64,000 bases of DNA from Dioscorea cayenensis subsp. rotundata (Eukaryota; Streptophyta; Magnoliopsida; Dioscoreales; Dioscoreaceae). The stretch spans positions 345,501-409,500 of the forward strand of contig NC_052474.1 in NCBI RefSeq assembly GCF_009730915.1. Direction: 5' to 3'. Of the stretch, positions 7,267 through 64,000 are shown one piece after another. The notes below the pieces were generated by a model. It did not search any database, was not told where the DNA came from, and was given only the letters and a program-made list of their open reading frames with translations. How positions within the stretch are numbered: the first letter of the stretch is position 1; each line of letters opens with the position of its first letter. The position numbers were made by a program, and so were the translations under genes.

Positions 7267-7336
7267 TTCCACAGCTAGTGGAAGGGCTGCTGTATTTGTT
7301 TACTCTCTGCTTATTTAATGCATGTGGTTTATCCAC
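7267..7336 (+). other. Paired hairpins in the LINE 1 3' UTR
   Basis: An upstream hairpin TTCCAC-AGCTA-GTGGAA (7267-7283) lies 40 nt before a terminal hairpin GTGG-TTTAT-CCAC (7324-7336), which is followed by CTTTTCAAAA and the A-rich tail. The same arrangement recurs at the other LINE 3' ends in the window. It probably acts as the RNA structure recognised by the LINE reverse transcriptase (inference). Confidence 0.6.
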
Positions 7337-7377
7337 CTTTTCAAAAAAAATAAAAATAAATAAATAAATAAATAAAT

Positions 7378-7875
7378 TTTTCATGGTGCTATATATATTG
7401 GAAGGCGTTGGGAAATCATCAGCCATTGATGCCTCTGTTAACCTTGTCTACCAGTGATTTGAGCTTCCAACTAATCATGCTATTGGGGACAAACAAGAAG
7501 GTTCGAAAGAAGTCACTTCCAAAAGTGAATGGAATAGCTACTGCATGAAAGCAACCGGTTTGGTCCCTATATATCATACAGTATTTTTTTCCTTTTATGT
7601 GTGCTTGTGATAGCAATGGCCATTCCTTCATCATGGATTCTCACTTATCTTCTTCTTCTCTATAAGGGAATGATGATGCAAATGCTTGGCTTCCAACCAA
7701 TTATAAGCAAACCAATAGTTTGAATTTGTCACAAAAACATTGTGTGAATGGAAAGACAAATTACAGTGAAAATTTTTTATCATCTAGAAAATTAATAAAA
7801 AACACACAGCATGATACTATTTGTACAGAAATCTCTCAAGTGACGGTAGTTAGCAATTGTTCTTCTAAAAGTCAT
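7378..7875. other. Spacer between LINE 1 and the bHLH gene
   Basis: I recognise nothing here. It should include the 3' UTR and polyadenylation region of the minus-strand bHLH gene. A 71-codon minus-strand frame (7419-7634) has no recognisable family or splice context and is not called as a gene. Confidence 0.5.
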
Positions 7876-10023
7876 TAAATAGTCCTCTTCGGATTGCTTT
7901 GCTGCTGCTGCTGCTGCTGCTGCAGGTGCTGCTGCTGCTGCTGGTCCTGTTGCTGCTGCTGCTGCAGGTGCTGTTGCTGCTGGTATAGACGTTGATACAG
8001 GGCAGCCATCTTGCTATAAGCATCCATGCTCATTGGCTGTTGTCACAGATATCAAGTTATCAAACTATTTTAAGTTAAATAACTCAAAATTGCTAAATTA
8101 TACAAAAACTGTATTTGATAAATTTGTTTTGTGAGAATAACACCACAATTCATTATAAGTTAATATAATAACTGTGCATACCTGTGATGGGTGAGCCATG
8201 AAAGCTGATAAAGAGTCCATGGGGACTGGGGCACCGGGTGGCTGCATTCGATCACCAGAGGCCTCCCAAGAGCCTCCGGCGGCGAGAGATGCAAAAGCCG
8301 ACGGGTGGAGGAGTGGTGGAATAGCAGGGTGTCCAGCCCGGTTGATGGCGGCCATGTCCATCATGCCCATGCCCATCCCCATTCCCAAGCCCATCTGAGT
8401 CATTTGAGCCATGTGAGCCATGTTGGCCATTAAAGACATTTGGAGCTGTGGCATTGCCATGGGCATCATCATCTGGGGGAAGCCACTCATCCTGTTCATC
8501 ATCTGCACCTGAGCTTGCAGCTGCTTCAAGTAGTCTATTACTTCATCCAGCATTGATGCTTTATCAGTCTATCACATCAGGAATAAAGTTCACACTCAAC
8601 TCACATCTAATTGAGTTGCAAATTGAGGGAATCAATGCACTTTGGTTACCTTGCTTGAGTTTGGAACTAGCTTTTGAAGTGTTCTCATTTTCTCGTTTAT
8701 CCGATCTCTTCTTTTCTGAACATATATATATATCATCAATTAGAACTCTCACAGGTTGACAAATCATTGCAAGAACTATTTTTCTTGTCAAAAATTGACA
8801 TCTTTCTTTTTCATGGTGATGGGGCAACAGGGCATCTATGAGATTACAGTCAATCTTGGTTGTGAATCTAGTTCCTTCAGCCGTCAGTGTCATTAAAACA
8901 ATATCTTAAACAACTAATGTTCAACCTCATGCTCTGTTTTGTGACAAAAAGTGTTCATCACTGGATAACTAGTAAATTTCTAAAGCATCAAACTTGAATT
9001 TAAACAAATCTACGTTTCTTGTCTGATAAACAGAGGATCAAGAATTTTACTCGTTCTGACTGATTATGAATAGCTGCTGCTCTGCTACGCTTTGTAGATA
9101 GTGAGGACATCCCTAATTCCCCCTTGTTCACCTTCTCACCCTCTTCATCAGCCACTGCATCTCTCTTCTAAATCCATCATCATTCAAGGAAGTTAGACAA
9201 TTCTAAATACACACACATATACGTACGCAGAGAAACAGATCCTATACAAGACAAGAGACAACAAAGATATTATATCATCAAGTCACACCTGTGACCTCTT
9301 GCTCTGGCAAAAGGAATCATGGCCGCCGAGACTAGTGTTCTCAGTGTCCGGCAATCCACCTCCATCATCTGCTTCTCCATCCGGGGAAGACGTTGTAGTG
9401 AAACCCACATCCTCACCGCCGTAGAACTCACAAGTATCATCAAGCGTCATCACTGTCGGCGCAACACTACCCTGGCTCGGACACCCCCACACACCCTCCC
9501 CTCCTCTTGTCCTCTTCCTTCCTCTCCCACCACCTCCCGCGCTCGACCCGTCCACCGATGGTAAATTCGGAACCTGGTCAGAAGCCTCCACAGCGCGGTG
9601 GCCAAAAGAGTTAGAACTAGGAACAAGCGCGTCCACTCCGGAAGCAGCCACATGAGGATGAGCACCACCGAGCCAGGACATGAAACTCGGGTGCCCAGGT
9701 GACGAAACTTGGATTTGGTTGTTAGTGGCCTGGTCGACAATGGACTCAAGCGTGCCGCTTTGGTGCTGTTTATCCCATCCCACGGTCGAGCCAGTGGTCG
9801 ACGGGTATTTAGCGATGGGCTTGCTGATGCGCGCGTGGCCGAGGCCATGCATAGCCACGTTGCCGTTCTCCCATGTTAACTCGGCCACTTCGTACTCCGA
9901 GGAGACGTGTGGGCGGTTGGAAGGGTGATGCTGGTGGTGGTGATGGTGGAGTAGAGTTGGTGGTGCATTGGCGGTCATGTTTGGAGGATCATCCGTGTCA
10001 CAAGTAGGCACACACTGGCTCAT
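7876..10023 (-). CDS. UNE10: UNE10-like bHLH transcription factor (PIF7/UNE10 clade)
   Basis: Five exons on the minus strand: 9289-10023, 9051-9167, 8650-8715, 8182-8568 and about 7876-8036, all with GT-AG borders. The protein is about 490 residues and starts MSQCVPTCD, as in UNE10. An APB-type motif near residues 47-62 (AELTWENGNVAMHG) is the phytochrome B-binding site of this family. Here the usual Gln of the ELxxxxGQ consensus is Asn. The bHLH spans about residues 271-325. The basic region HNQSERKRRDR keeps the His, Glu and Arg residues that read a G-box (CACGTG). A Met-rich stretch and a conserved MSMDAYSKMAALY segment follow. The tail is poly-Gln from a CAG tract. I could not fix the reading phase through that tract, so the last few residues and the stop are approximate. 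Nuclear, acting in light signalling by homology. Confidence 0.9.
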
Positions 10024-10520: not shown

Positions 10521-10573
10521 CTGCCTGCCTGCCTGCTTGCCTGCTTGCCTGCTTGCCTGCCTGCCTGCCTGCT
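10521..10573. repeat. TGCC/TGCT tetranucleotide microsatellite
   Basis: About 50 bp of alternating CCTG and CTTG units with no coding role. It gives spurious Cys/Ala/Leu or Gln/Ala/Gly/Arg frames on the two strands. Confidence 0.9.
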
Positions 10574-10589: not shown

Positions 10590-10795
10590 CTTCCACTATT
10601 GCCTTTGACTATGGTCCTTGGTCAGTGTTCGGCCATGGGTGTTTTGGCCGGGTTGTTTGTGGGCCTTTTGTTTTGTTTTCACTCAGTGAGAACTTTTTAT
10701 GATCTGTCCGTGATTTTGTTTGACCTTTTTAGTCCCGACTGCGAGTCTTTCTCTTTTCCTTTTTAATGCGTGTGGTTTATCACGTTTTTCATCAT
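10590..10795 (+). mobile_element. Truncated LINE 3' end
   Basis: A T-rich, coding-free stretch that resembles the 3' UTRs of the intact LINEs. It has a hairpin TTTTCAC-TCA-GTGAGAA (10676-10692), TTTTTAATGCGT, then a decayed terminal motif GTGGTTTATCAC (10772-10783). The 5' edge is uncertain and no target-site duplication was found. Confidence 0.6.
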
Positions 10796-13199: not shown

Positions 13200-13371
13200 G
13201 GAATGACAATAACCTTTTGGCTCTGCGTTGAGCATTCCTAACCGACTAAAGACGTGGGTTAGATCCTTAACTCATACAAGGTGATGGCACAAATACATTG
13301 AGAGCAGTAGTTTTATATTTATGCATATCTCTAACATGTGATTTATCCACGTTTCATTAAAAACAAAAATT
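13200..13371 (+). mobile_element. tRNA-derived SINE with a LINE-like 3' end
   Basis: The head has a Pol III A-box-like stretch TGGCTCTGCGTTG (13218-13230). About 25 bp further on is a B-box-like GGGTTAGATCC (13256-13266), one base off the GGTTCGA core. The tail ends with GTGATTTATCCAC (13338-13350), then GTTTCATTAAAAACAAAAA. This tail nearly matches the LINE terminal motif GTGGTTTATCCAC. Length (about 170 bp), box spacing and A-rich end fit a SINE. It is not a functional tRNA gene. No clean target-site duplication was found. Confidence 0.65.
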
Positions 13372-15032: not shown

Positions 15033-15404
15033 TTTTTGAAAAAGTGGATAAACCACGTTAATTAAAAAGAGAGGAGCAGAATACTAACATACTCCCACAG
15101 CACAATGTGGGAAAGCACAAAAAACATAAAACACAAACAACTAACGAGTTAACGACAGTGGTAGTCAGGGGACACAAACAAAACAAAGCAACAACGAAGA
15201 ACAACAAAAGTGTAACTGACACACGCCCGGCCACCACACTCGGAATCTCCCGACTACTCGCCTGTGTGGTGGACCCCGGGTCCCCTCGAAGGCGGATCAC
15301 CCCTGCCTCCACCTTCGGACCTAAGAAATCAAGACTCTGGCGGATGGTAGTGATGGAATCCTCTAGCTTGACTCTGGAGCCCTCCCCAGCTGAAGAGAGC
15401 CATG
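15033..15404 (-). mobile_element. 5'-truncated LINE with intact 11-bp target duplication
   Basis: Read on the minus strand, the fragment encodes the last residues of LINE ORF2. The motif KLEDSITTIRQSLDFLGPK matches KMEDHIATIKRSLDFAGPR of LINE 1. Next come the 3' UTR with hairpin CCCACA-TGTGGG (15094-15111), the terminal hairpin GTGGATAAACCAC (15044-15056, reverse) and a short A-tail. The direct repeat CCACGAGTAGG flanks it at 15022-15032 and 15405-15415, so both ends of the insertion are fixed. This is a dead-on-arrival copy. Confidence 0.9.
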
Positions 15405-34189: not shown

Positions 34190-34480
34190 GGTTTTTTTTT
34201 AAATTTTTTTTTTTTAATAAAATAGATAAATCACAACTTTATTAAAAAAAATAAGCAAGTAAAAAAACAACAAATGTCTAAAAACATCAAATAAAAGAGA
34301 AAACAACATTTAAACAAATTAGACAATCATCACTAGGGGTAATGAAACACCAAAACTGGAAAACAGAAAAAAAAAAAATAAAAATAAAAAAGCCACAGTT
34401 GAGAAAGTTAAAGATCACCCAGAAAATGACAAGGATCTTCTTTAGCTAAAGAAAGAAGTGAATCACTGCCAAGTCAAAGA
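34190..34480 (-). mobile_element. Decayed LINE 3' end
   Basis: On the plus strand a long T-run is followed by TAGATAAATCAC (34223-34234), a degraded reverse copy of the LINE terminal motif, and then A-rich sequence resembling a reversed LINE 3' UTR. An imperfect stem TCATCAC...GTAATGA lies near 34327-34344. Ends are uncertain. Confidence 0.4.
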
Positions 34481-35690: not shown

Positions 35691-35753
35691 TTGTTACTAT
35701 TCCATATTAATTTTTCTTAGTTTCATAGGTTAATTAATAATTAACAAAGGCAG

Positions 35754-37538: not shown

Positions 37539-39458
37539 TTTACAAAAAAGATATCATATAATGTTGTCTTTTTTATGAATAAATATGGATAAACCATGGT
37601 TTTATTGAAATAGAAAACTAAACATAACACATTGAAAAAGGAAATTGAAAAAGAAAAAAGAAAACGGAACATGACAAATACTGAAAAGAAAGATAACAGA
37701 ACAAAGCAACGAGGACATACTAAGATCTCACCAGGGGTGAGGAAAACAAAAAACAGTGAAAACTCTAAACAAGGAAATGAAAAGAGGAAAGAAAGTTGGG
37801 AAGGCGAAGTCAAAGTCATCAGCTTGGAGACACAAGGCTGCATGAGCTTGAAGACTGAGGGGATGGATTACTCCCAGTATAGGTTGACCTCTAGGTCGCT
37901 GTCGTGATCTGCTAACCTAGCGCTCAGGAAGTTGAGGGATCGCTTTATCTTCTAAAAAGCTTCAAGGTTGGTTTGCTTAGATGAATCTAGAGCTGCAGAA
38001 AACCAAGAGAGAAACATATTAGCAGTTTTCAAAATAATAGATTGAATGGGTAAGCAATTAAGTTGAAAATTTTGATTATTTCTCTCCATCAAGGTATTCA
38101 AGATAATTGCTCTAGAGATGAGATCCCAGATAATTCTGATATTAGAATTTAAAGAAGGTATGCATGAAGTCCAAATATTGGAAAGAGAAGGAGGGTGAAA
38201 GTGAGCTTCAAAAATTTGTTGAAAGAAAGACCAAATTCTTTCTGTGTATTCGTAGTCAAGGAAAAGGTGATCTACCGGTTCAGAATTTTTGTGACAAAGA
38301 ATACAAGTGTATATGGCAATTATATTACAATCTTTATTGAAAAGGTTAGATAAAGTGAGAATTTTGTCTTCCTAGGCTAACCAGCAGAAAAGAGTGATTT
38401 TGCTTGGGCATCTGATTTTCCAAAATTTGGAGTAAAGATGACTTTGAACCCCTCCATCTATTAAGAACTTGTAGAAAGATTTAACTGAGAAGGTTCCCTT
38501 TTTTTCTAGAAGCCAAGAATATGTATCCTCTTAGTTGTTAGAACAGTATGGATTGAGTTCAGGATCATGGAGATATCGTTTAATGAAGCTGTGAGAAAAA
38601 GATTCTCTGGGGAATCTAATTGAGTGAATTGTCTTAAACTTATCCAAGGACATGTACAATTAGTGAATAGGGCAGGCCAAAAAACTTTAAGGGTTCGCCC
38701 TTCAAACCACCGATCATACCACAATGTTGTACTTGCTCCATTTCTTACATGTTTGGTAATACATGCTCTAAATGAAAGAAGAATGGGGTTGATCCCTGAC
38801 CAGAAGAATGATTTGTTTCAAAGCGGAGTCTGAAATAAGGGAATGACTTAGGTGAAGTTAGATAGATGTAGTTAGTACTGTAGTTCACCATTAATATTAT
38901 GACACGTGTCCCAAAAATATATAAAAATATAATAACTTTCCTATAATGCCCTCACCTTTTTTTTAAAATTACTCATCTCATGCCACGTGTCAAACATCTA
39001 ATGGTGAACTACACTAACTACACCTATCTAACTTCACCTAAGTTATTCCCCTGAAAATAATATCCCAGGCAATTTTTTGTTGGAATAGTTGGCATTGATG
39101 ATTTTTGCCCAGCAGTTATTTGGGTTGGAAATGATCTTCCACCACCATTTCCCAATTAGCGTTTTGTTAAATTCTTGTAGATTTAGAATTTTCCAACCTC
39201 CCATGTTGCGAGCATTGCAGATTCTCTTCCAAGCAACCAGTCTGATTCCTTTAGAACTGAGATATGGTCATTTCCAAAGAAAATCTCTTTTGATTTTGTT
39301 GATTTCTTTTATTACGAAGTTTGAAACCGACATCTAGTAAACTGGAATTGAGGATAATTCTGAGTTGAGAAGAGTTAATCGGCCCCCTAAGGATAAATAA
39401 ATTGCTTTGCAAGGAGAAAGTCTAGATCGGACCGTTGATTTATCTATTTTTATTAAAT
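37539..39458 (-). mobile_element. LINE D: 5'-truncated LINE with 18-bp target duplication
   Basis: An 18-bp direct repeat AAATATCATATGATAGTT (37521-37538 and 39459-39476) brackets the insertion. Minus-strand translation gives broken C-terminal ORF2 (YLSLGGRLTLLNS, FWKIRCPSKITLFCWLA, LCHKNSEPVDHLFLD), then the 3' UTR with hairpin CTCACC-GGTGAG (37727-37741) and the terminal hairpin ATGGATAAACCAT (37585-37597). Both stem sides of that terminal hairpin have changed together relative to GTGG/CCAC. About 46 bp of extra sequence lies between the hairpin and the left duplication. A MITE (38839-39050) later inserted inside. Confidence 0.88.
38839..39050. mobile_element. Mutator-like MITE nested in LINE D (212 bp)
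   Basis: The terminal inverted repeat is about 45 bp, beginning GGGAATGACTTAGGTGAAG and ending CTTCACCTAAGTTATTCCCC. It is flanked by CTGAAATAA (38830-38838) and CTGAAAATAA (39051-39060), a 9-10 bp duplication with one slipped A. The LINE coding sequence resumes directly after it. A 9-bp duplication with GGG ends fits a Mutator-type MITE. Non-coding. Confidence 0.8.
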
Positions 39459-40185: not shown

Positions 40186-40189
40186 GAAC

Positions 40190-41592
40190 CAAGTGGCGTC
40201 CAAAGTCCTTGTAGGCGTCCTCTTAAATCAAACCGATAACATTTGTCACCTCCAATACGCTGACGATATCCTTATCTTTTCCGCTGGTAGACAAGAAGAC
40301 CTTCAAATCATCAAACTGATTCTTTATCTTTATGAGGGATCTTCTGGTTTAGCAATCAACTTCTCGAAAAGCTGTTCGTTCTCTTCTAATTACGGCTTTC
40401 AACCCCACCTTACTTCTGCTAGAATACTTAACTGTTCCAGAAATTGTCTCCCGATCACCTACCTTGGGGTCCCTCTCTCTGGTCGAAGACCCAGACGAAT
40501 GGATTGGGCAAAGCTCATTGGCATGGTTCGCACTCGACTATCTTCTTGGAAAGCAAATTACTTATCCCTGGGAGGTCGCCTAACTCTTATCAACTCTGTC
40601 CTAACTACCGTCCCAGTTTATTGGATGTCGGTTTTCAAACTTCCTATCTGGGTGACCCTGAAAATTGATAAAATTCGGCGCGACTTTCTTTGAAAAGGGC
40701 CCGAACTGAGTTCTAAAGGTGTTAGACTCATCGCCTGGAACAGAATCACTAGACCTCGCAACATGGGAGGCTGGGGAATCCTTAACCCCCAACATTTTAA
40801 CAATGCTCTTCTTGGTAAATGGTGGTGGAAACTATCCCGTAATCCAAATTATGGTTGGGCTAAAATCATCCAAGCTAACTACTCTGTTAGAGACCCACAT
40901 GGAGCTTTGTTTCATTCCCCACCTAAAAATAAATCCTTCTTTTGGGCGGGAGTGACTACCATTCTGCTATCCTTTAGATCCTGTATCACGAAAGCCATAA
41001 ATAACGGGGCTAACACTTTTCTCTGGCTCAAACGATGGCATAATTGGATTTTACTTAAAGATCTTTGGCCTACTCTATTCTCTAATTGTGCTGATCCTTG
41101 GATTACCATCAGACATTTCCATCAGTGCCTAATTAATCCAGAATCTTTATTTCCCTCTGTCCCTGCTGAATCTCTTTTTGCTCTCCTTGATATTATTCCT
41201 GAGTGCTCCCATAATCAAGAAGACACCCTCATTTGGGCACTTGAAAAAAGTGGCAATTTCTCAGTCAAATCTTTTTATAAATTTCTCATTGATGGTGAGC
41301 TCCGCTGCCCACTTTACTCAAATTTTTGGAAAATTCACTGCCCCAGTAAAGTCACACTTTTCTGTTGGCTAGCTGGAGAGGACAAAATTCTCACTCTCAC
41401 AAATCTTTTCAAAAAAGGTTTCAACTTTCAAAATTCCACTAATACTTGTGTCCTCTGCCATAATGCCTCTGAAAATATTTAGCATCTTTTTCTCGACTGT
41501 GATTTTACTAAACGAATTTGGACATTCTTTCTTCATGCCTTAGATTCAAATTCTCTCCCACTTTCAATACATTTGTTGTGGTCCAAATGGCT
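40190..41592 (+). mobile_element. LINE B, 5' part (5'-truncated, split by LINE C)
   Basis: The copy begins inside the reverse transcriptase (ASKVLVGV...). It carries HLQYADDILIF (Tyr codon 40256-40258), the thumb region (YLSLGGRLTLINSVL) and the zinc-binding-like tail (CVLCHNASE). A Trp codon has become TGA at about 40694 and a TAG ends the frame at 41480-41482. It breaks off at AAATGGCT (41585-41592), where LINE C inserted, and resumes at 48164. It is very similar to LINE C, so they belong to one subfamily. Confidence 0.9.
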
Positions 41593-41684
41593 TAGATTCA
41601 AGTCATGGAATCTGAATTGCTGAAGGGAAAGTAGACACTTATGAAGATCAACGGCGGTGAGGATCATCAATTTCCTGCGCGGAT

Positions 41685-44463
41685 ATGAGATTCCTTGGAA
41701 GCTCTCGCGATGGCTCTGGTGGTGCTTACGATGGTCATGGTAGCTCTCGGTACTTTCGCGGAGGAGCTCGTGGGGGTTACCGAGGTGGATCTAGAAGGGG
41801 TGCTCGTTCTTTCGTTGCAAACTCTGGATCCTCTAGGCCGGATCTTACCACTAACCCACAGTATTCTTCCGCCTGTCTGGATTTCAAAGTTTCCCCAGTG
41901 AGGGAAGACGTATCTTATGCTGCTGCTGTGGCACATTCGCCTCCGTCTTTGGAGGCCAATCCTTCTTCTCTCATTGTCCCTGCTGCAGGTCAACCTTCTT
42001 CGAAGCGTCGCCGCTCGCCGGATTCCGGCGAAGTTTGTAAAAAATGCCTTAGACCTGGCTATAAATCTGAGGATTGTAGACATCTACTCACTTGTAGGCG
42101 CTGCTACGGAGCTGGTCATCTTGCTATCAGGTGCCCGTTTCGCTCTTCTCCACATTATCCTGACACCAAGAAAGCTAGAATCAGATCCAAAAACTTTCCT
42201 CCGGCCAACTCCTCGGAACTCAAGCCCCTTCTTCATGTTCCAGTCGGATCTTCTTCTTCTTCTTATCGCGTTTCGTTGCCCATCACTGAAGCCATCCTTA
42301 AATCCAAGGATGATCTCAAAAAAATGAGCATTATTCGTGTAATATCTGGCAATGCAAGTGTGAAGTCTCTCCATGACTGTCTTCCACAATGCCTGGGCAG
42401 CGCCCTTTGTGAACATATCACTCCTTTTGCAGACGATTTTGTCCTTACAATGGCATCAGCTAGAGATGCCACCGCGGTTGTTAAGAGAAGTCCTTTGTCT
42501 CTGAACACATCTCTTGGCCATTGCAAAATTAGCTTCTCTCTCTGGACGGCCGAGTTTGGTTCGCACGCGGTTGCTGCCGGAAGCTACAACTGGATCAGAC
42601 TAACTAACCTCCCACTCCATTGTTGGAATTGGGACTCAATTGTTGATGTGCTTCGGCCAATTGGAGACTTAATATATGTTCAAAAGAAAGAGCACATTTC
42701 CCTCGAACATTTGAGAACTCTGATTAGACTTAGTAAATCGATCAGCTTCCCGTTAGAAGTCACAGTGGATGTTGGTGTTCGAAGCTTCAGAGTGAAACTA
42801 GAAGACGATGGGACTCATGTGCTTCGATCGAAGGTTGTTCAGGGCCCGGTGACCCATAAATCCTCTCAAACAGTGCCGGATAATCCCAGCTCTCTACCTT
42901 CGGCTCCATTACCCCGCAGCTCTCTTCGTTCATCCAAAGCTGACAAAGGTAAAGGGACTCTTTTACAATCTCCCGTCGATGATAATCCCGGCGAGACCGT
43001 TGAGCATAGCTCCGGTCTTGGCCATCCGACGAGGATTGATTGTTGTAATTCTTTGGGAGCTAAACCACAACCTTCCGGTGATCGGAAGCTGACCGGATAC
43101 ATTGGTTCTTCATCGGTTTTTCGTGAGAAACCCGATGACGGAGATGCACTGTTGCCATGCAGTGGCAAAGGGTTGATTGGTCGTTCTTTGGCCGTGGGTT
43201 TGCCTCGAGATAGGGATTCTGAAATACAATTTGGAACCATGCATATGTCCCTCTTGCATGGTGAGAACATCTCCCTGGATTCCCGTGCTACCTCACATGA
43301 TCCCACGATCAAATCCCGAGAAGAGAATCCCACTCACTCACTTCCTCGGGATCAGATTTCTGATCAGATCTCTCCCATTATTTTTGATCAGGTGCCTTGT
43401 GATAAGCTTTCTTCTCACACAACGGAGAGCTTGCCTCGAGATTCTCATATCATTGATAACTCATTCACTGATGATTTAATGCCTCAAGATATGCAATCCA
43501 CTGATGATTTAATGCTTCTAGATAGGCAATCAACTGATGATTTTTTGCCTCAAGATAAGCAATCTTCAGATTTAACACATCCTCCTCTTAAAAATCCATT
43601 GCCTCGTGATAGGCTTCCTACTCCAACCATTTTTGGAGCCCATTAAATCGCCTAATTTCGATCCCGAAACACTTCCTCCTCTTCAAAAAAATGATTATGT
43701 GATCCCTATCCTACCAGACACATCCACACAGGGGAATCTCCCCATTCACTTGGAACTTCTTCCCCCGTCTATCCCAATTCCAGTTGGGTATAAATGGATT
43801 TTTATTCATGGTGGCTGGACCTTGATTCCAAGTATCAACTCGGACAAATTCTACACTCAAGACCCCTCACCCCAAGACGTCTCTTTAGAGGATCCCTCTG
43901 ATGAAGAACTTCTTGATTGGGGCGATGATGAGGACATTCTTGAGAATGAAATTGCTGATGATGACATCCTTCTAGAAGATGAATATCTCAGTCACACTGA
44001 TCAAATTGTTCAACCACCCGACACAGAAGATGAGCTGATGCCTGATGCTTTATCCTTCTCCACTGCAGCTGATATTGCTTCAGAAGAAACTGGTACAATG
44101 GGAAATACTCCAGACTTACAGCCAATTGTACCGAAGCAAATTAGAAGAAGCGACAGGCCCAAGAAACCTTCTGGGCGTTGGAACGAAGAAGCAGGTTTTG
44201 TCCCACATCCGCCTAGATCTTCAAAGAAGAAAATACCTGATGATCCACGAGAAGGTACGCCTAACCTCATTAACTCAGTTTTCTCTTCTTGGACTGATGC
44301 TCAACTTATTAATTATAGCAACTCTTGTGGCATTAAATTCCTTGGATCTCCTAATCATAAATCCAAATGCCTAGAAAAAATTCGCTCGGTTGAAAAGGAA
44401 AGAACCTCTAATCGCCCTGGATCTCCTCCGAGATCAACTGCTAGTTCTACTTGTTTCTTATGA
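41685..44463 (+). CDS. LINE C ORF1 protein (RNA-binding, zinc knuckles), one frame break
   Basis: About 925 codons in two overlapping frames (41685-43646 and 43606-44463). A one-base change near the T-run at about 43630 would account for the break. The N-terminus is Gly/Arg-rich (RGG-like). Next come two zinc knuckles: CKKCLRPGYKSEDC, whose zinc-binding His is Tyr, then an intact CRRCYGAGHLAIRC. A middle region resembles the single-strand-binding part of plant LINE ORF1. An acidic low-complexity stretch with LPRD repeats follows, and the C-terminal module (GYKWIFIHGGWTLIP, SDRPKKPSGRWNEEAG, SWTDAQLINYSNSCG) is shared with LINE 1. The stop overlaps the ORF2 start as ATGA. Confidence 0.85.
43467..43565 (+). 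repeat. 33-bp x 3 tandem repeat inside LINE C ORF1
   Basis: Three in-frame 33-bp units (43467-43499, 43500-43532, 43533-43565) encode 11-residue repeats of the form TDDLMPQDMQS. They sit in the acidic linker and are not at a domain boundary. Confidence 0.85.
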
Positions 44464-47400
44464 AAATTCTAAGCTGGAACGTTAGAGGTCTTGGCAGACC
44501 CTCAAAACGCCACCTAGTTAAAGATGTCATTTTATCTTCACAAGTAGACATAGCTTGTCTTCAGGAATCCAAACTTCTTGATCTCCATTGTTCCACCTGG
44601 AGATCGATTGGTGGTAAGCGCCTAGATACCTTTGATTTCTTACCGACACTTGGTACTGCTGGAGGTATTATTGTTGCCTGGGACAGCTCCCAAGTTTTCG
44701 GAACCCTATTTCATAAAGGGTCATTCTCCATCACTATTAAATTTTCCAACAGAGTTAACAACTCTATCTGGGCTTGTACCAATGTTTATGGCCCAAACTC
44801 TCATTCCACTAGATCTGATTTCTGGAATGAACTCCGTTATTTAAGAAATCTCATCGCTATTCCTTGGGTGATCTGTGGAGACTTCAATACTGTGTTCACT
44901 CTTGATGATAAAAATAATGGTATTATCAACCCTAGGGACATCTCCATCTCTCAAAACATACTTTGCGAACTTAATCTCATTGACCCTCCCATTATCGGGA
45001 GAAAATTTACCTGGACCAATGGTCAAGCTGATCCCATTTGGATTCGTTTAGACCGATTCTTGTACTCTCATAATTGGCCTTCCTTATTCCCTAGATCTTC
45101 TCAACTTGCTCTCCCCAGAATTGGATCCGATCATTCTCCTATTTGTCTCAATTTCGGAGATCATCTTTTGCGATCCCGACTTTTTAGAGTTGAGAAATTC
45201 TGGTACACCAACCCTCAATTAGAATCCCTTATTCAGGAGTGGTGGATGGAAATTAACCCTCACTGGGTCATGGAGCTTACATCCTATCCAAAAAAACTAT
45301 CTCATTTAAAAAGCCAATCTTCGCCTTTTGGTCAAAGAATACATTTGATGCTTCAAATCTCCTTAAGAAAAAAATTTACTAGCTGAATTAAACTCCCTTG
45401 ACACCATTGGCGAAAAGTAGAATTCTCTCGGTGGATGAATCCAATCGCCTATCCCAAATTCGATCGGAGCTCTACTCTATTCTAAATCAGGAGGAAATTT
45501 ACTGGAAGCAGAGATCCAGAATCACTTGGCTTAAAGAGGGGGATCTAAACACAAAATTCTTTCACCAATTTGCTAATGGCAGAAAAAACAAAAATCATAT
45601 TCCTCGCATTCGCCATAACAGCCACTGGACTGAAGGTAATGTGCAAATTGGTAGAATCTTCAATGATTATTATCATACTCTCTTTGGTTCTCCTCTACCT
45701 AATAGGTTTCTACTTGATTGGCAACACTTATTTGATTATAAAGAGAGAATTGATCTTTCTCATCTTGAATCCCTTTTCTCCTTAGATGAGATAAAACATG
45801 CTGTCTTTGACTTAAATCCTGATAAAGCTCCTGGTCCGGATGGATTTCCTTTATTTTTTTCCAAAAACACTAGACCACCCTTCAGGACACTTTAGTTAAA
45901 CTTTTTGACGATTTCTATGTCGGATCCCTCAACTACGAGCATCTAAATTGGATTCACATCGCTCTCATTGCAAAAACCAATGCACCAGGGGAGGTCTCTG
46001 ACTATCGTCCTATTAGTCTAATTAACTCCACTTGTAAAATCATTTCTAAGATTCTCGCCTCTCGCTTAAGCTCAGTGATTAGCAACCTGGTGGATGATTT
46101 CCAATCTGGCTTTATTAAGGGCAGATGTATTGCGGATAATATTATTGGAGCTCAAGAAGTAATTTTCAATCTGCAAAAACGGAAATCACTTGGCTATGTT
46201 TTCAAAGTTGACTTTGCTAAAGCCTTTGACTCTCTTGATTGGAATTTCCTTCTTGATGTCCTTGCTGCTAGAGGTTTTGGACCTAGATGGCTATCTTGGA
46301 TTCACACTATTCTCGTGCTCAGAAAGACCCAATTCATCATCAATGGTACTACCCGTGGGTATATCCGATGTAGAAGAGGATTGCGACAAGGTGATCCTCT
46401 TTCACCCTCTTCTATTTGCTTTGGTCGCGATGTCTTGAGCGCTATGTTCTTTTCATGCTCTTAGATCCAAAGTACTCGTGGGAGTTCCTTTGAACCAATT
46501 TGATAGCATCTGCCACCTTCAATATGCTGATGACCTGTTAATTTTTCTCTGCCGGGGGTCAAGATGATCTCCGAATCATCAAGCTTTATTCTTTATGTTT
46601 TTTTGAAGGTTCCTCCGCCTCGTCAATTAATTTCTCAAAGAGCTCGTTTGTATTCGACAAATTATGGTTTCCAACCACATTCCTCAACCGCCGTAATCCT
46701 TAATCGCTCAAGAAATTGTTTACCCATCACCCTATTTAGGGGTCCCCCTTTCGGAAAAAAAGGCCAAGACGCCTAGACTCGGGATAAACTCATTGAGCGG
46801 TGCGCTCTAGACTCACCCCTTGGAAAGCAAATTACTTATCCCTAGGTGGTCGTTTAACTCTTATTAATTCAGTGCTCTCAACTGTTCCAGTCTACTGGAT
46901 GTCAGTATTGAAACTACCCGCCTGGGTGATCAAAGATATTGATCAAATCCGTAGAGATTTCTTATGGAAAGGACTTGATTTGGGTTCCAAAGGTATTAGG
47001 TTGGTTGCTTGGAATAGGATCACTAGACCCAAAGACATGGGTGGCTGGGGAATTCTCAATCTTCGTGATTTTAATATAGCCTTGCTTGGGAAATGGTGGT
47101 GGAAACTATCTTGCAACCCAAATTGTGGCTGGGCCAAAATCATATACATCAACTACCTAAACAGAAGCCCAACTGGAGTTTTGTCTTATACTCCACCCAG
47201 AAACAAATCTTTCTTCTGGGCGGGTGTTATTCCCGCTCTTTTACCCTTTCGGTCTTGCATAAAATTAAACCAGGACGATTCTCCTAACCGTGTTTTTGGA
47301 AAAAAATGGGAAGTTCACTGTCAAATCCTTTTACAAATTCCTTATTGACGGTGGATTACGTGAGTCCACTCTACTCGCATTTCGGAAAACTCGTAGTCCC

Positions 47401-47954: not shown

Positions 47955-48163
47955 CCCTACACCTATCTGATTGGACAGGCCTGATGATCCAGACGGTGTT
48001 TTTCGTCTGTCCAGCTTTTATCTTTGGCTTTTTCTCGTTTTCTCGTACGTTGTTGTTATGTTGTACTTAGTTTTGTTCCTCACCTCTGGTGAGAGGACTG
48101 TTCTACTGTATCCTTTGCTATTTCAATAAAGCTGTGGTTTATCCACATTTTTCAAAAATGGCT

Positions 48164-48650
48164 ACCCTCTATTGACTCTCAACACCGAATTCTCTGGGAT
48201 CTTGTCTCCCGTGCTGTTCTTTGGAATATCTAGATTGAAAGAAACACTCGTATTTTTCATTTAAATGCTTTGCCATACATTAATATTATCTTTAAAATTG
48301 CTAATATGCTCATTTTCTGGTTTTCAATAGCTGCTGATAGACATCAATAATCACTCAATGAAGCTTCTCATAAAATTAAGCACTCCCTCAGCTTCGAGAC
48401 TCTGATCCTGGTGATCCTGCTCATGATATAGCTCAGGAGTAGTTGCTCCGACTTCTGTCTAGACAGGCCTGAGTTGCCAGATGGTGCCTTCCGCCTCTCT
48501 AGACTCCCCTCTTGTTATTCTGCTTTTTTGTATTTTCTGTTGTGTTTGTTGTACCCCCTCACTTCTGGTGAGAGGCTCTTGGTTCTGTACTGTTTTTTTT
48601 CTTTTCAATAAATATGTGGTTTATCTACATTTATTTAAAAAAAAAAATGG
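48164..48650 (+). mobile_element. LINE B, 3' part
   Basis: ORF2 continues (WLPSIDSQHRILWDLVSRAV...IKHSLSF) with stops. The 3' UTR follows with hairpins CTCAC-TTCTG-GTGAG (48558-48572) and GTGGTTTATCTAC (48616-48628, a G-U wobble in the stem), then an A-tail. From 48357 onward it is part of the 467-bp segment duplicated on the far side of the MULE. Confidence 0.88.
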
Positions 48651-54715: not shown

Positions 54716-55319
54716 CTAAAACAATAGGACATCAACAATGCGATGTACATCTAGGCGTATATAAACACATCGAAGCTTCTTGAAGCCACTGTTCATCACA
54801 ACAAACACAAGCATCACATCTACTGAAAAAGAAAATCACTTACGATGAGTCCGGGTGCTTCCTCACCCTCACGCCGAATCTCCCAGTTAACCGTCATCTA
54901 CGTACATCGGAGAGCCAACTGAGCTTCAGCCGACAGCGCTCCTTCACCCGATTCACAGTTCGCACAAAACCCTAAACTTTGTCTATCGCAATCTCCGCCC
55001 GGTCAAGACAACGAACCCACTGTCCAAATTTGAGATTCCCGCGAAAGGGCTTCTCTGACGCGTGGCACAATGGCTTCTCACTCAGCCTATCTTTTGTTTT
55101 GATGGGGTACAAACCAAATGACTCAGCGGCTAGATGGAAGCCAGGTTGGAATACCCCAGATGACTCAGCGGCCACATCAGCTTAAATGACCGACTTTGGT
55201 CAGGGTCACCTGCCGTTGAAATAAAAACACAACTTTGGATACCTTTTTGATACAAATTAAAGGTGGGATACCTTTTTGAAAAAAGGTATAAGATAAGTAA
55301 CCTATCAAAAAATTTACTC

Positions 55320-56189
55320 AATGAAGCTTCTCATAAAATTAAGCACTCCCTCAGCTTCGAGACTCTGATCCTGGTGATCCTGCTCATGATATAGCTCAGG
55401 AGTAGTTGCTCCGACTTCTGTCTACACAGGCCTGAGTTGCCAGATGGTGCCTTCCGCCTCTCTAGACTCCCCTCTTGTTATTCTGTTTTTTTGTATTTTC
55501 TGTTGTGTTTGTTGTACCCCCTCACTTCTGGTGAGAGGCTCTTGGTTCTGTACTGTTTTTTTTCCTTTTTAATAGATATGTGGTTTATCTACATTTATTT
55601 AAAAAAAAAATGGATTTGGTGTTAATTTTTTTAAAAAAAAACAAAATTCTTAAGCCTATTTATTTATTTATTGGTATGTTAAAGATAGCTTTAAAGAAAT
55701 AATTGTATTTTCAAGGCCAATCATATGCATATACATTGCCTCATTCTGAATATTGATCGTATGATCATATCTTGGTGCTCTTCTGTCACAGAGGGACATA
55801 GAGAGAAGATGGATGAAGACATCAATACCGTTAGAAGAAGCCTGGAGTTCATCGGCCGCCGGGCGATTGACTTGGAAGAGACTCCAGAGGAGACACTTTT
55901 TCCTGACGCGGGCTAGGTGATGACTATACTTGTGTGGGGGGGCCGCTGGCTTTCGGGGCGGATGTTTTTTTGCTGTATCTTTGTTGTTTCTTTTGTTGTT
56001 GTTCGCAACCACACCTAGTGGTTGTTGACTTTTGTTCTTATTTTGATTTTAATGCTATGTGGTTGATCCACCTTTTCAAAAAAAATAAAATAAAATAAAA
56101 TAAAATAAAATATTACATAATAATGGGGCTTAAAATTCTTATAACTCCAAGCCATTGTCAAGTTTGTGCACATCACTAGTAAAAACACG
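55320..56189 (+). repeat. 467-bp direct repeat, right copy, interrupted by LINE E
   Basis: Begins AATGAAGCTTCTC directly after the MULE terminus and repeats the LINE B tail, hairpins included (CTCAC/GTGAG 55521-55535; GTGGTTTATCTAC 55580-55592). A LINE fragment interrupts it at about 55695-56105. It resumes as TAAAATATTACATAATAATG and ends AAAAACACG at 56189. Confidence 0.9.
55695..56105 (+). mobile_element. LINE E: 5'-truncated LINE inside the right repeat
   Basis: Encodes the last residues of ORF2 (KMDEDINTVRRSLEFIGRR, matching KMEDHIATIKRSLDFAGPR of LINE 1), with a stop near 55916. The 3' UTR has hairpins CAACCAC-ACCTA-GTGGTTG (56006-56024) and GTGGTTGATCCAC (56059-56071), then a (TAAAA)n tail. 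It is absent from the left repeat copy, so it inserted after the duplication. The target duplication is obscured by the A-rich tail. Confidence 0.88.
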
Positions 56190-57264
56190 AGGATAGCTTG
56201 GATATGTGCTATGATAGTAAAATACAAGGAAAATAGATAAAGATTGCCAAACAAAACAGAATCAGGAGAAGAACCGGTTAGGACATTATTTAGCATCATG
56301 GTCTTGATCAACAATATGGGAGCCTTCTTTAGCGAGAGCGCCTGATGCGGAATGATATTTTTCAACTTCGTTTTTTTTTTTTTTTGTGTCACCGGTGCTA
56401 TATTAATCCAAGTAATAAGTGAATGATAAATTTTGCATATAATCAATAAAAAAAGAAGAAGAAGAAATGTAAGAAAATATGTAGTTTTTTTAAAGTCATA
56501 TGTATCAACAAATTGTACGAATAAAAAAGGTCCGAAACCACCAAAGAATGAGACACTGCCCAGAGTTCTTTATGAGAAATGAGTGTTGGGGAAACTAACT
56601 AATTTTTTATGTGTAACTAATTTGGCTATACCTTTGAATTTACTAATTTTTTTATGTGTAACATCTTGACAATAAGATATGGCATTGGACATAATAGATT
56701 TTCCTGATAGAACGTTTGTGGATAATAACAGGATAAAGGTATTATACTAGATATTTAAATAGGACGCAACCAATTAAAACTAAAAGAAGAAAACCAAACA
56801 AGAAAATCTAAGTTTAAATTCAAGTCATTTCTCAATTATCCATAATCAAACACCATTTTTTTTAAAAAAAAAAAAAAGTGGGAAAAAATCCATTGTTGAT
56901 ATATACATATCCAATCCATTCGAAATGTTTTAATTTCTTAATCCTTACTGGAAGAAATGCAAAATAAACTTACTGCAATAAGACAAAATCAATGATATTA
57001 ATTGAGAGTTTGGGAGTTGGCCTAAACATGAGGACACCAAAAGTCAGAGTGAAGCTTGTCCCTTATATATTAAGATCATGAAAGCAAGAAAACAGAGCAA
57101 AGAGTTATAAGAGAAAGAATGAAAGGAAGAAACAAAGGAACAGAGAGATGCAAAAGTTAGTTGGTCACCAACCATAGAATCATTCCTCATCCTACAAAGG
57201 AGACTTCCAAATAAGAATCTTCCAAAAAGAAGACTAGCAGTCCCAACTTTGAAGGTAAACAACA
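56190..57264. other. AT-rich spacer, 5' flank of the metalloprotease gene
   Basis: AT-rich with poly-A/T runs. No coding sequence recognised. The last 200 bp hold the promoter of the downstream gene. Confidence 0.55.
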
Positions 57265-57272
57265 TATATATA
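57265..57272 (+). promoter_or_regulatory. Candidate TATA box of the metalloprotease gene
   Basis: TATATATA lies 42 bp before the ATG at 57314, which would give a very short 5' UTR. Confidence 0.5.
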
Positions 57273-57313
57273 CACCTTTCCCATTCTTTCTAAATCAAAG
57301 AAGGAGAAAAACC

Positions 57314-58306
57314 ATGCATCCTCTGTTCCTAGTCTTCTTCCTCTTTTACACAAGCTACGCCCATAAACACCAGCTAAACACCACCTCATGGCACGCCTTG
57401 GGAAAACTAGTGAACGCCGAGCGGGGGGCCAACGTGACCGGTGTCTCAGACTTGAAACGCTATCTCAATCGGTTCGGTTATCTCCGCAAGAACGCCAACT
57501 ACACGGACGTGTTCGATGTCTCTTTAGAGACAGCGCTTAGTCTTTATCAATCCAGACTCGGGCTCCCGATCACGGGTCGGTTAGATTCCCGCACGCTGTC
57601 CCAGATCATGTCACCACGGTGCGGCGTGTCTGACGCTGCAGCGCCGCGCCGCAAGGCGTTTGCTTTCTTTGTAGGCGAGCCACGTTGGGCGCGCGCTAAA
57701 CCCATCAACCTCTCTTACGCGCTCTCCCAGTTCGACACCATCGATTACATACCGAGAGCTGAGATACGTGCAATCTTGCGTCGAGCGTTCGATCGTTGGT
57801 CACGAGTGATCCCAGTGAATTTCATTGAATCAGAGGATTACGAGTCGGCGGACGTGAAGCTGGCGTTCTTTGCAGGGGATCACGGGGATGGTGAACCATT
57901 CGACGGGGTGTTGGGCGTGCTCGCGCACGCGTTCTCGCCGATGAGCGGGAGGTTGCACTTCGATGCGGCCGAGAGGTGGGCGGTGGACTTTGGAAAGGAG
58001 GACTCGCGCGTGGCCGTGGATTTAGAGTCCGTGGCTACGCATGAGATCGGGCATGTGCTCGGGCTCGCGCACTCGACCGTGCACGACGCGGTCATGTACC
58101 CGAGCCTGAGTCCGAGGAAACGAAAGACGGAGTTAACAGCTGATGATGTTGAGGGCGTGCAAGCGCTCTATGGGTCTAACCCAAAGTTCCAGTTTAGTTC
58201 GTTGATGGAGTCTGTTACTTCGGCTTCTCAGGTCACAAAAGAGACACGTACACGGTGGAGAAGTTGCATAGGAATTCTTATTCTTTTGATGGTGATGATA
58301 CTTTAA
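57314..58306 (+). CDS. Matrix metalloproteinase (plant At-MMP type), complete
   Basis: 330 residues in a single exon, as usual for plant matrixins. A signal peptide (MHPLFLVFFLFYTSYAHK) leads into a peptidoglycan-binding-like prodomain (LKRYLNRFGYL...TGRLDSRTLSQI). The Cys switch SPRCGVSD follows, with Cys at residue 103, the residue that keeps the zymogen inactive. The catalytic domain has the structural-site segment AFFAGDHGDGEPFDGVLGVLAHAF, the zinc site HEIGHVLGLAH (first His at residue 243) and a Met-turn (AVMYPS). A C-terminal hydrophobic stretch (CIGILILLMVMIL) suggests GPI or membrane anchoring at the cell surface. No hemopexin domain, as in all plant MMPs. The gene is GC-rich against its AT-rich surroundings. 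Confidence 0.95.
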   Translation: MHPLFLVFFLFYTSYAHKHQLNTTSWHALGKLVNAERGANVTGVSDLKRYLNRFGYLRKNANYTDVFDVSLETALSLYQSRLGLPITGRLDSRTLSQIMSPRCGVSDAAAPRRKAFAFFVGEPRWARAKPINLSYALSQFDTIDYIPRAEIRAILRRAFDRWSRVIPVNFIESEDYESADVKLAFFAGDHGDGEPFDGVLGVLAHAFSPMSGRLHFDAAERWAVDFGKEDSRVAVDLESVATHEIGHVLGLAHSTVHDAVMYPSLSPRKRKTELTADDVEGVQALYGSNPKFQFSSLMESVTSASQVTKETRTRWRSCIGILILLMVMIL

Positions 58307-59374: not shown

Positions 59375-59597
59375 CTTTGAAGGGAGTTCGTATGCCGAGG
59401 AGGCACTTCTTTGGATACGGGCTAATCTCTTCAGTCACCGGTTTTTGGAGGAGGCCTTTTATTGTCCCTCCTTTTTGCTTCAAGTGAGCGTGTTGTCACT
59501 CACGGTCTTTGACGCTTTTTAGTCTTCAGCTTTTTGGAGGTCCCAGATGTCTGTCTGCTTTTATTTTTAATCGAGTGGTTTATCCACCTTTTCAAAA
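59375..59597 (+). mobile_element. 5'-truncated LINE 3' end
   Basis: LINE-like 3' UTR with hairpin GTGAG...CTCAC (59484-59503, 10-nt loop) and the terminal hairpin GTGGTTTATCCAC (59575-59587) followed by CTTTTCAAAAA. It has no coding part. The 5' edge is approximate and no clear target duplication was seen. Confidence 0.7.
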
Positions 59598-60810: not shown

Positions 60811-61938
60811 GTAACATCTCAATTCTCTCTCTCTCTCTATATTTTTTTATTCCTTAGTTTGTGCGCGCGCTGTGCTTATTGGTAGATTCATTAGTTTTTT
60901 TTTTAAATGGATAAATTATAATTCGTTGAAAGAGACATAACAAACAAAAAGTACAAAATCCACCACCACTAAATTAAAGCAACAATAAGATAGAGAGTAG
61001 CTATTTTTTTTTTTTGAAAGTTGAAAAAAAAAAAATGATAAATGAGTAGGGAGATGCATCTGTTATGGTGGTTTACTGATCTTTTAAAGATAAACCTTCG
61101 GCTATATAATCCTGAAGGAAAAAATAAAAAATACTCACACAGAACTCCCACAAAGGACAAAAGAAGTGAATTGCAATTTGAGATGATCGAATTCGAGACT
61201 TTTCAATTACAAACATGGTATTTACCAGTGAGCTAGCCCATAATTCCTTAAAAAAGCTTGATTCATTTAAAGTGTTATAGAAAAAATAATTATTTTATTT
61301 TTTTATAAAAAATAAATAAATTATATTTATTGATAATTAAAATAGAGACAAAGGAGAGAGAACAAAACAACTAGAAAACTCTTTTGGGAAAAGGGATTCT
61401 TATACCATTTTGCTCATGGATTAAATGAGGTTAATTTTTTTTTTTTTTTTGAAAAATCGATAAACCATTAGTTTATTAATGTAAAAACAAGAGATAAGTA
61501 TGTATGGACCAAAACGAACATGTTTAATTGTGATTAATTAAGCTCGAGTTAAAATGCGATTTGTCCATGTTTTTTTTGAATAAACCACTATTTATTAAAA
61601 TAAAGCACTATAAAAAATTTGTCCATATTTCTTAAAGAATTTTAATCAATAGTAAAGTTTTTGCGTGATCTTGTTTTAGATTAGTGCTAATTACTAATTA
61701 AACTATAGAAAAATTAAATAATACTATATATATTACACGAGTCTAAAAAAGTGTGATTTAATTAAAGTTATTTTGAACACTAGAATTAAAAAAATAATGA
61801 TTTAAACTTTAAAAATATTTGAATAAAGTATATTTCTATAAACAAAATTTTTAATTATCACGCTATTAATTTTCTCTTGCACAATATAAATCTCATCTAA
61901 TGGAATTTTGGAAAGATAAAATTAAGTGATTTTTTATT
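60811..61938. other. Presumed SPL intron with decayed LINE tails
   Basis: Contains degraded reverse copies of the LINE terminal motif near 60907-60920, 61457-61469 and 61578-61588, each next to a T-run. No SPL exon recognised. Confidence 0.45.
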
Positions 61939-63261
61939 AGGGGAAATTTCACTAAACTATCATGTGGTTTGACTCTTTATAAATTTTGGATTTATGATTT
62001 AAGTTTTGATACTTGAATATGATGTAGTTTAAACCGTTTGCAAAAATATGCGAAACACATAAACCCATTAATACTTACGGATGCGGTATAAAAATATACA
62101 TAAAATTATTCTTTTGCCCTTAAAAATATACAACCAATTTTTTCTCCTAATTAGAATTTTGAATCCCAAAGCCAATTAAACCCTAATTTCTATGGAAATC
62201 TCTTTTTGAAACATGTAATGTAGTGTTTGTTTGGAGGGTTTTGGAATTTTATGTAACTTAAGATACTGGGTTTTTAGAAATTCAGTGTTTAGTTCACAAG
62301 ATTTCAAAAACTTTTATAGCTCAGATTAAATCTAATGAGTAAATCTAATGTGTGATTTGGTTTTACATCCAAATTGGCAGTAAAACCAAATCCTTTGTTT
62401 TTAGGCTTCACATGCATAATTTGTGATCTACATGCCTGACCAATTAAGGAAAAATAAGTATTGTCAAATATTCATAGATACCTTTGTTGAATAGAAAATT
62501 TATAAAATATAATGATGAATTTAATAATTAGTTTAATAAATAATTTAATAATAAAGTTAATAGTTAAAATGATTAATACGATAATTAAAATCATTAAATA
62601 ACATGCTAGAAATATATGGCAAGTTCATAAATACTTTTTGTTGGGTTAGTAATTAAATTAAAAAATTACAAAATTTTAAATTTTTTTAAATAAATATAAT
62701 AATAAATTTAATTACTAACTTAATAGTAAAATTAAGTTAAACTAATTAATATGAAATTTAAAATTATTAAAATGACATTAAGATATTTGGTATGTAAAAG
62801 TTTTTAAGTCCAAATTTACAAATTTGCAAATACAAAATCTTGTAATATAGTATATATCTTCAGTTACGTCTAACCAAACATCTGATTTGAGTAAACTGTA
62901 TTTTAAAATCCATATATTTTCAATTATATTGTAATTGAAAATCCACTGTATTTACAGTTTTATTGAACCAAACACAACCTAAGATAAATAATACAATTTC
63001 CTTCTAATTTGTTTCATTTAGAAATGATTTTTTCACCTAATTAGGAGAATCAATCGGATGTACTAATGCAAAAAACCGTAAAAAAGTAAATTCACATACA
63101 TTTTTATGTCACATCAGTAAGTATTAAAGGTGTTAAGTGTTTTGGCACCTTTTTTGAAAATAATTTAGATTATAAAGTACTAAAGTATTAAAACTCAATG
63201 CATAAAATCCGAATTGATAAAAAAAATCAAACCACAAGATAGTTTAGCCAAATTTCCTCCT
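61939..63261. mobile_element. Non-autonomous TIR element (about 1.3 kb)
   Basis: Long diverged inverted arms: left AGGGGAAATTTCACTAAACT then ATCATGTGGTTTGA, and right ending TCAAACCACAAGATAGTTTA then GCCAAATTTCCTCCT. The similarity extends inwards for roughly 200 bp, including CTCCTAATTAG on both sides. No clean target duplication and no coding sequence. A possible second element with TGTTTGG-type ends is nested at about 62219-62985. Confidence 0.6.
62219..62985. mobile_element. Possible nested TIR element
   Basis: Ends TAGTGTTTGTTTGG and CCAAACACAACCTA are imperfect inverted repeats lying between the arms of the larger element. No duplication found. Low confidence. Confidence 0.3.
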
Positions 63262-63749
63262 TTATATTAAAAAAAAATAAGTAAAATAAAAAATTAGAAT
63301 TTTATTTTTTCTTTTAAAAACTTCTTTATAAAGCATCACTGAAACATAAGGAATTTTTTGTTTTGATGAATGTAGATAAGGTACAGCATGGGGTGTGCAT
63401 TGATGAGAAGTTCATACCTTAATTAACCCACATATATATCCTCATTTTGTTTGAGCTGAGGTTTGAACGTGTTTTATTAGTAAAAACACAAATATCCTAT
63501 ATAAGGCACTCAGTACAAATAGACCAAAAGGTCTTTGGATAAAATGTGATGTTATATTAAGTAAATTAGAGTATTACTCTTGCGCTCTCTCTATATAATA
63601 TATATTGTAACTCAACCTATTTTTTTTTTAAAATAATTATTGATAAGTCATAACTAAACTATTGTTTGGAGAGGGGACTAAATTCTCTGAACCTCTCACT
63701 TAAGAGGGTAATGAGTCCTCCTCTCACTGGTGGAACTACTTTTCTTTGT
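63262..63749. other. AT-rich spacer
   Basis: No gene or exon recognised. Confidence 0.55.
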
Positions 63750-64000
63750 TGTTTTTTAAAATGGATAAATCATAAATTTTTAAAAAAAGACCAACACAAA
63801 ACGTTACAAGCATACAAACAATAGAAAAAGTACATAAATCCAATGAAGGTGGAAACAAAAAATAGACAAAAACAAAGACACACCAAAAGACAAAGCAACC
63901 CACCCCTGGGTTAAAAGAGTCTCCTTCCACGGGGAAACATAAGTAAAACCAAAAGAAACTAGCCAGGGGTTGGAGCTAGGGCCTGGGTCTTTGGATCGTG
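63750..64000 (-). mobile_element. LINE 3' end running off the window
   Basis: On the plus strand a T-run is followed by ATGGATAAATCAT (63761-63773), a variant of the reversed LINE terminal motif, and then A-rich 3' UTR with hairpin AACCCA-CCCC-TGGGTT (63897-63912). The coding part would lie beyond 64000. Confidence 0.65.

Follow-up and report, generated by a model that had tools for sequence, protein, structure and literature searches.

The window described here, a stretch of 64,000 nucleotides (nt) from Dioscorea cayenensis subsp. rotundata, covers positions 345501-409500 of contig 4 in a searched genome of 584 Mb and 2249 contigs, and its subject is the 3' end of the long interspersed nuclear elements (LINEs) that lie in it. 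Several LINE copies with endonuclease, reverse transcriptase and zf-RVT domains were recognized by Pfam and tblastn. This domain set, as seen in Pfam matches, is of the L1 type and places the window LINEs in the plant L1 clade. Judged by sequence comparison, thousands of related LINE copies share one 3' signature, which consists of an upstream hairpin with a variable stem and a near-fixed terminal block. The following parts of LINE copies were located (ORF, open reading frame):

3503..4363, plus strand: endonuclease-like part of LINE copy A (tblastn with the 44445 endonuclease ORF, E 9e-88)
4666..7182, plus strand: ORF2 of LINE copy A, reverse transcriptase and zf-RVT part (Pfam RVT_1 1.7e-30, zf-RVT 7.4e-20)
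about 41600 (41661)..48158, plus strand: LINE copy E, 3' end at 48146
41661-43646, 44445-45386 and on to about 47905, plus strand: ORF1-like part, endonuclease and ORF2 remnants of copy E

Copy A ends at 7336. Copy E is nested inside copy D (40181-41590 and 48159-48628), the 3' part of which occurs a second time at 55304-55698. Segment 48343-48979 is duplicated, partly inverted and near-identical (95-100%), as 55164-55698 plus 56104-56189, and the duplicated segment contains an apparent empty site of LINE copy G. Target-site duplications were found at 15044, 37585 and 61576, all on the minus strand; that of copy B (15044) is a target-site-like repeat (15 letters, one mismatch) that lies 363 nt before the terminal motif. 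The terminal motifs are:

7324..7336, plus strand: exact motif, copy A
10772..10784, plus strand: motif with one base missing from the 3' arm (model R2 E 0.018, site included in the model)
15044..15056, minus strand: exact motif, copy B, tail TTTTTCAAAAA
34222..34234, minus strand: motif GTGATTTATCTAT
37585..37597, minus strand: motif of copy C, ATGG/CCAT
48134..48146, plus strand: exact motif, copy E
48616..48628, plus strand: motif of copy D, G-U variant
55580..55592, plus strand: motif in the duplicate of copy D
56059..56071, plus strand: motif of copy G, loop TTGAT
59575..59587, plus strand: exact motif (hairpin upstream, at 59484, off consensus)

An earlier reading of the letters had placed a terminal hairpin GTGG-TTTAT-CCAC at five sites. 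Its exact form GTGGTTTATCCAC is present at four of these (7324, 15044 on the minus strand, 48134 and 59575), while 56059 carries the loop TTGAT; the count of nine or more copies holds only if variants are included (14 ends were aligned), the exact form occurring four times in the window. The G-U variant at 48616 and 55580 was confirmed as GTGGTTTATCTAC, as was the joint change to ATGG/CCAT at 37585. A terminal-block model finds 15 window places at E<0.02; it was built from 14 of them, the fifteenth being the duplicate at 55580. In the genome the exact 13-base motif has 2518 copies, compared with 13 for its letters reversed as a control, and the pattern of loop and tail with the arms left free, TTTATNNNNNTTTTCAAAA, gives 1375 matches against 198 in the control. 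Among ten window ends (45 pairs), identity over the terminal 19 nt averages 0.805, compared with 0.585 in shuffled sequence, and over the stretch from 140 to 30 nt before the motif, hairpins included, 0.626 compared with 0.621. Among the 72 exact-motif matches listed for contig 1 (30.6 Mb), 33 fall within 3.3 Mb of the contig start and 15 within 1.4 Mb of its end, so that the two ends are about tenfold richer in copies than the middle. A literature search with the motif letters gave, among the matches listed, no paper on LINEs by title.

Upstream of the terminal motif lies a hairpin with a stem of about 5 bp and a five-base loop, NNCUN as consensus. The sites are:

7266..7284, plus strand: copy A, TTTCCAC AGCTA GTGGAAG
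10675..10693, plus strand: hairpin of the 10772 end, GTTTTCAC TCA GTGAGAAC, 8 bp, triloop (weak match to the hairpin model, E 2.3)
15094..15111, minus strand: copy B, CCCACA TTGTGC TGTGGG (weak match to the hairpin model, E 0.56)
34327..34345, minus strand: TCATTAC CCCTA GTGATGA, absent from the earlier list
37727..37741, minus strand: copy C, CTCACC CCT GGTGAG
48079..48093, plus strand: copy E, CTCACC TCT GGTGAG
48558..48572, plus strand: copy D, CTCAC TTCTG GTGAG
55521..55535, plus strand: hairpin in the duplicated 3' part of copy D
56006..56024, plus strand: copy G, CAACCAC ACCTA GTGGTTG

All nine upstream hairpins named in the original prediction are there letter for letter, but as a single conserved element the set is too wide, those at 59484, with a loop of 10 nt, and 63897, with GGGG as its loop, being off the consensus of the others. 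The hairpin model was built from six hairpins and matches those of the 15044 and 10772 ends weakly. The distance of 34-44 nt from the motif, noted before for five copies, extends to six at about 33-44 nt (7324, 15044, 48134, 48616, 55580, 56059), and the gap at 10772, 34222 and 37585 is 78, 92 and 129 nt, respectively. A hairpin rule taken from a by-eye alignment of the window, [CT]AC-NN-CT-[AG]-GTG, matches seven places on both strands of the 64 kb, all seven upstream of terminal motifs and on the sense strand, compared with a mean of 0.75 matches in 100 shuffles of the window (0.15 if the stem is at least 5 bp). The rule was devised after most window copies had been inspected, hence the genome is the real test. 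With the loop left free, CU occupies loop positions 3-4 in six of eight window loops, one of them a duplicate, and the preceding base varies.

In the genome, an anchor AC..CT.GT was present within 250 nt upstream of 43 of 90 distinct exact-motif ends, with three sites in antisense. The best anchor site per end forms a stem of at least 3 bp in 43 of 43 cases, where the search itself fixes only two pairs. ORF2 homology was found upstream in 49 of 100 genome ends; 35 of these 49 carry the anchor in the stretch from ORF2 to the terminus (antisense 0/49), and 12 of the 51 ends without such homology carry it as well. The upstream hairpin is thus far commoner than chance, both against shuffled windows (7 vs 0.75) and against antisense (35/49 vs 0/49). 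At variant ends, within 190 nt, the anchor is scarcer, with 7/40 for ATGG/CCAT and 6/20 for ATGG/CCAC compared with 47/99 for the exact motif. One rigid module of two hairpins was considered and rejected, as the spacing between hairpin and motif varies.

For the study of pairing, genome and window together supplied 56 distinct hairpins, in which pairs 1 and 2 are fixed by the search anchor. Pairs 1-5 are paired in 56, 56, 56, 51 and 46 of the 56; pair 4 is C-G in 29 and U-A in 19, and pair 5 is A-U in 21, C-G in 13, U-A in 7 and U-G in 4. A custom R-scape-like test was used, in which substitutions were re-dealt along a tree derived from the flanks or from the hairpin, with 200 simulations per tree. 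Pairs 4 and 5 are paired in 97 of 112 cells, whereas the two null distributions have means of 65.6 and 58.3 and maxima of 91 and 90; no other of the 253 column pairs covaries as strongly as pair 5. In the six-hairpin window alignment covariation is 0.562, compared with 0.255 when shuffled, a value reached in 0 of 500 shuffles, and when arms were swapped among six families the observed 41 of 42 paired cells, compared with a mean of 28.8, were reached in 2 of 720 permutations. Support for pairing of the upstream stem as a whole is strong, while covariation at single pairs is suggestive, not conclusive. The claim that the stem varies yet stays paired accordingly stands for the pairing (97/112, above the null maximum of 91) and falls short for individual pairs, none of which has E<0.05 in the 56 sequences. 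Column pair 10,14, i.e. loop positions 1 and 5, ranks fourth in covariation, with C..G, T..G, A..A and T..T as common combinations, which suggests a non-standard closing pair above an NCU triloop.

Several results weigh against a recognized upstream hairpin and are gathered here. Single-pair covariation E-values on the two trees are 0.11 and 0.24 for pair 5 and 0.36 and 0.80 for pair 4, and two of the four top-scoring column pairs are outside the stem, with (22,23) ranking second. Pairs 6-9, which most copies do not retain, are paired in 23, 36, 26 and 22 of 56 hairpins, so that the kept stem amounts to about 5 bp. Two of five measures on the six-hairpin alignment are unexceptional (reached by 44 and 68 of 500 shuffles), the arms in the swap test were chosen because they pair, and the genome anchor fixes the loop CU and the inner two pairs, so that their conservation is measurable in the window only. 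The folding energy of the 90 nt before the motif is ordinary in 13 of 16 ends, with a signal in three, and shuffled sequence mostly yields a hairpin as strong as the best one of the real end (p 0.01-0.56 in 11 ends); the combined p for the best hairpin per end is 8e-5 without the duplicate and 0.001 with two relatives also removed. At 7324, 48134 and 59575 the top-scoring hairpin differs from the one named. Finally, the anchor is missing in 14 of the 49 ends with ORF2 homology, four of which have a looser hairpin, and its start lies at a variable 44-125 nt from the terminal motif (43 ends).

For the terminal stem the evidence of pairing is weaker. Across the 14 window ends, 83.9% of the cells are paired. 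Both sides have changed at the outer pair only (three A-U), four ends have a broken inner pair, and covariation is higher when the partner is slid by three columns (0.275 vs 0.231). At the outer pair the genome has G-C 2518 times, G-U 553, A-C 392 and A-U 214 (controls 13, 7, 10 and 12). The compensatory A-U thus compares with about 86 expected under independent change, an odds ratio of 2.5 with an interval (2.1-3.0) that is too narrow because the copies are related by descent. Among fetched places a LINE-like tail follows in 23/40 for A-U, 15/20 for A-C and 85/99 for G-C. Twenty places with a 3' arm other than CCAC were drawn from 100 listed TTTATNNNNNTTTTCAAAA matches, and some of them are chance matches. 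Variant ends were also collected without reliance on both arms; in this set of 38, 119 of 152 cells are paired, compared with 107.9 when permuted (P 0.001). Of these ends 12 have a broken inner pair, and fully paired ends (14/38) are no more frequent than in permutation (P 0.51). The scan behind this set gave 208 real and 32 decoy matches, and exact-arm ends, one duplicate and matches scoring <19.9, a cut chosen after the list had been viewed, were left out. What is kept in the terminal block is chiefly its sequence; support for a stem is modest, weak to moderate. The original prediction had taken the terminal hairpin as primary and the upstream one as second; the pairing evidence ranks them the other way round.

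Target-site repeats revealed a further class of ends. Exact repeats of at least 10 nt flank 17 of 100 exact-motif ends, with 0-20, 21-60, 61-150 and 151-600 nt upstream of the motif in 11, 1, 2 and 3 cases, while 300 decoys with swapped flanks gave 0, 1, 0 and 7 in the same classes. The eleven short insertions are 30-51 bp long in ten cases and 59 bp in L021, and hold hardly anything but the terminal block between the repeats (e.g. L018, L019, L062, L014, L015, L033 and L079); the tails of L033 and L079 are without an A-run, and L021, with a tail of 42 nt, and L095, a simple repeat, are doubtful. If repeats of at least 12 nt are required, short insertions are left at 7 of the 100 ends, compared with 0 of 300 decoys in that class. 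A second run on 99 exact ends, limited to 190 nt, gave 11, 1 and 2, with one decoy in 294 in the first class, and the two variant sets gave 1/40 (decoys 1/116) and 0/20 in the 0-20 nt class. A very short insertion also lies in the window:

61576..61588, minus strand: motif without 3' arm plus about 28 nt upstream of it, flanked by the repeats AATATGGACAAAT and AACATGGACAAAT

Our reading is that these insertions are reverse transcripts halted just past the terminal block. It is quite possible that they are instead inserted short LINE RNA fragments or a tiny non-autonomous element, in line with the narrow range of their lengths (0-20 nt upstream of the motif) and with their occurrence mostly in the exact-motif set (11/99 vs 1/40 and 0/20); against this, tails and upstream letters vary among the insertions, as they would in truncations of several subfamilies. 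If they were aborted starts, they would make the points of failure of target-primed reverse transcription visible in genomic DNA. Among the literature matches listed, none concerned, by title or start of the abstract, insertions made solely of a LINE 3' end.

Other features of the window include a candidate short interspersed nuclear element (SINE), which may be a partner of these LINEs:

13205..13361, plus strand: possible tRNA-derived SINE whose 3' end is the LINE terminal motif (13338, GTGATTTATCCAC); box A-like and box B-like stretches recognized by eye and in a scan

In a tRNA-promoter scan this candidate ties with two other places of the window, and Rfam gave no tRNA or other match for it; its origin from a tRNA is unproven. 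The Rfam scan of the window found no family at or above cut-off, and no relatives were found in the viral, plasmid and phage collections searched. Other ORFs encode two matrixin-type proteins, one SBP-domain protein and one F-box/LRR-like protein (F-box under the Pfam cut-off). The matrixin-type metalloprotease ORFs lie at 35745-36431 and 57215-58306 on the same strand (Pfam Peptidase_M10).

We think it likely that the LINE RNA ends in two elements, an upstream hairpin with a loop core and a variable paired stem, and a terminal block; the 3' signature probably tells the LINE enzyme where copying starts. The first element would be the hairpin between ORF2 and the terminus, with about 5 bp, an NNCUN loop and an outer stem that changes yet stays paired, and the second, at the very end, the near-fixed RUGG-UUUAU-CCAY-N-UUUUC-A(n), possibly a small hairpin. 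The ORF2 protein would most likely recognize the upstream hairpin through its loop and the general shape of its stem, and the terminal block would position the RNA end for target-primed reverse transcription. The assignment of the hairpin as a loading signal and of the block as a start register follows the analogy with zebrafish LINEs (PMC4176376); protein may bind to, and retrotransposition may need, either element. Stringent recognition of the 3' end, as proposed before, in part fits the variable paired stem, the conserved loop core and a published plant L1 parallel (PMC3747384). More tentatively, the signal may be a two-part one in which the hairpin loads the enzyme, the block sets the start, and frequent aborts leave bare start signals of about 30-50 bp. 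If true, insertions of this size would record failed starts as fossils and at the same time form a minimal mobile sequence.

It is rather unlikely that the terminal block is kept as a signal for polyadenylation and cleavage (AATAAA or TTTAAT followed by UUUUUCA/AAAA), its hairpin being incidental. In many ends the motif is indeed closely preceded by letters like AATAAA or TTTAAT and followed by a T-run that often includes CA, and the broken inner pair (4/14 and 12/38) and better-scoring slid partner leave the terminal stem weakly supported. Plant poly(A) signals, however, are loose, and would hardly hold a 13-mer at about 190 times the control; the excess of A-U at the outer pair and the pairing of the 38 variant ends, though not their full pairing, also speak against it. 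We regard it as unlikely that the hairpin variants are fixed, by-chance-paired differences of a few old subfamilies, with apparent covariation from shared descent: the single-pair E-values against the tree null (at least 0.05), the second rank of the non-stem columns and the common family of the CTCAC/GTGAG copies C, D and E fit such descent, but the tree null incorporates it and yet in none of its 200 simulations per tree came to the pairing seen, pair 5 shows four standard pair types, U-G included, and the surrounding stretch of the ten window ends is barely more alike than shuffled sequence.

A stem that varies around a kept loop core, in a genome holding thousands of copies, makes the choice of RNA by these elements testable by statistics and by cell assay. 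It bears on how plant L1 elements choose their RNA and on whether stringent recognition is ancestral (PMC3747384). Human L1, of the relaxed type, probably recognizes poly(A) repeats (PMC3747384). The window LINEs share with it the L1 clade, the endonuclease and the reverse transcriptase, but differ from its poly(A) dependence in a tail as short as that of copy B, directly followed by the target-site-like repeat. In stringent-type L2 elements (UnaL2, ZfL2-1, ZfL2-2) a stem-loop in the 3' tail is likewise present, with an important loop identity and a freer stem; the protein of the zebrafish LINE ZfL2 reads the loop in a specific and the stem in a general way (PMC4176376). These elements belong to another clade, UnaL2 ends in TGTAA repeats (PMC3747384), and binding and need were established by experiment for ZfL2 (PMC4176376), whereas here the elements are known from sequence.

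For plant LINE 3' structures, the literature matches listed comprised the Ohshima review and a maize survey (PMC2774510), other LINE papers being on animals or reviews. The grass L1 lineage ME1 (monocot 1a; LINE1-1_ZM with ZmSINE2/3; Ohshima 2012/2013) is, like the window LINEs, a plant LINE of the L1 clade with a hairpin near the 3' end. PMC3747384 describes this hairpin as lying within about the last 45-50 nt, with compensatory stem changes and a conserved UCU loop followed by CGAG. Two differences are seen: CGAG was not found by eye in the nine 3' letters (9 window rows, 43 genome rows), and unlike the ME1 hairpin in the last ~50 nt, the hairpin here begins 44-125 nt before a separate terminal motif (43 ends). 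A variable stem with compensatory changes is seen here too (single-pair E misses 0.05), and the loops compare as UCU in ME1 and NNCUN here, with CU in six of eight window loops when the loop is left free. In this behavior of the stem and in its loop CU, the upstream hairpin would work like that of the grass ME1 system.

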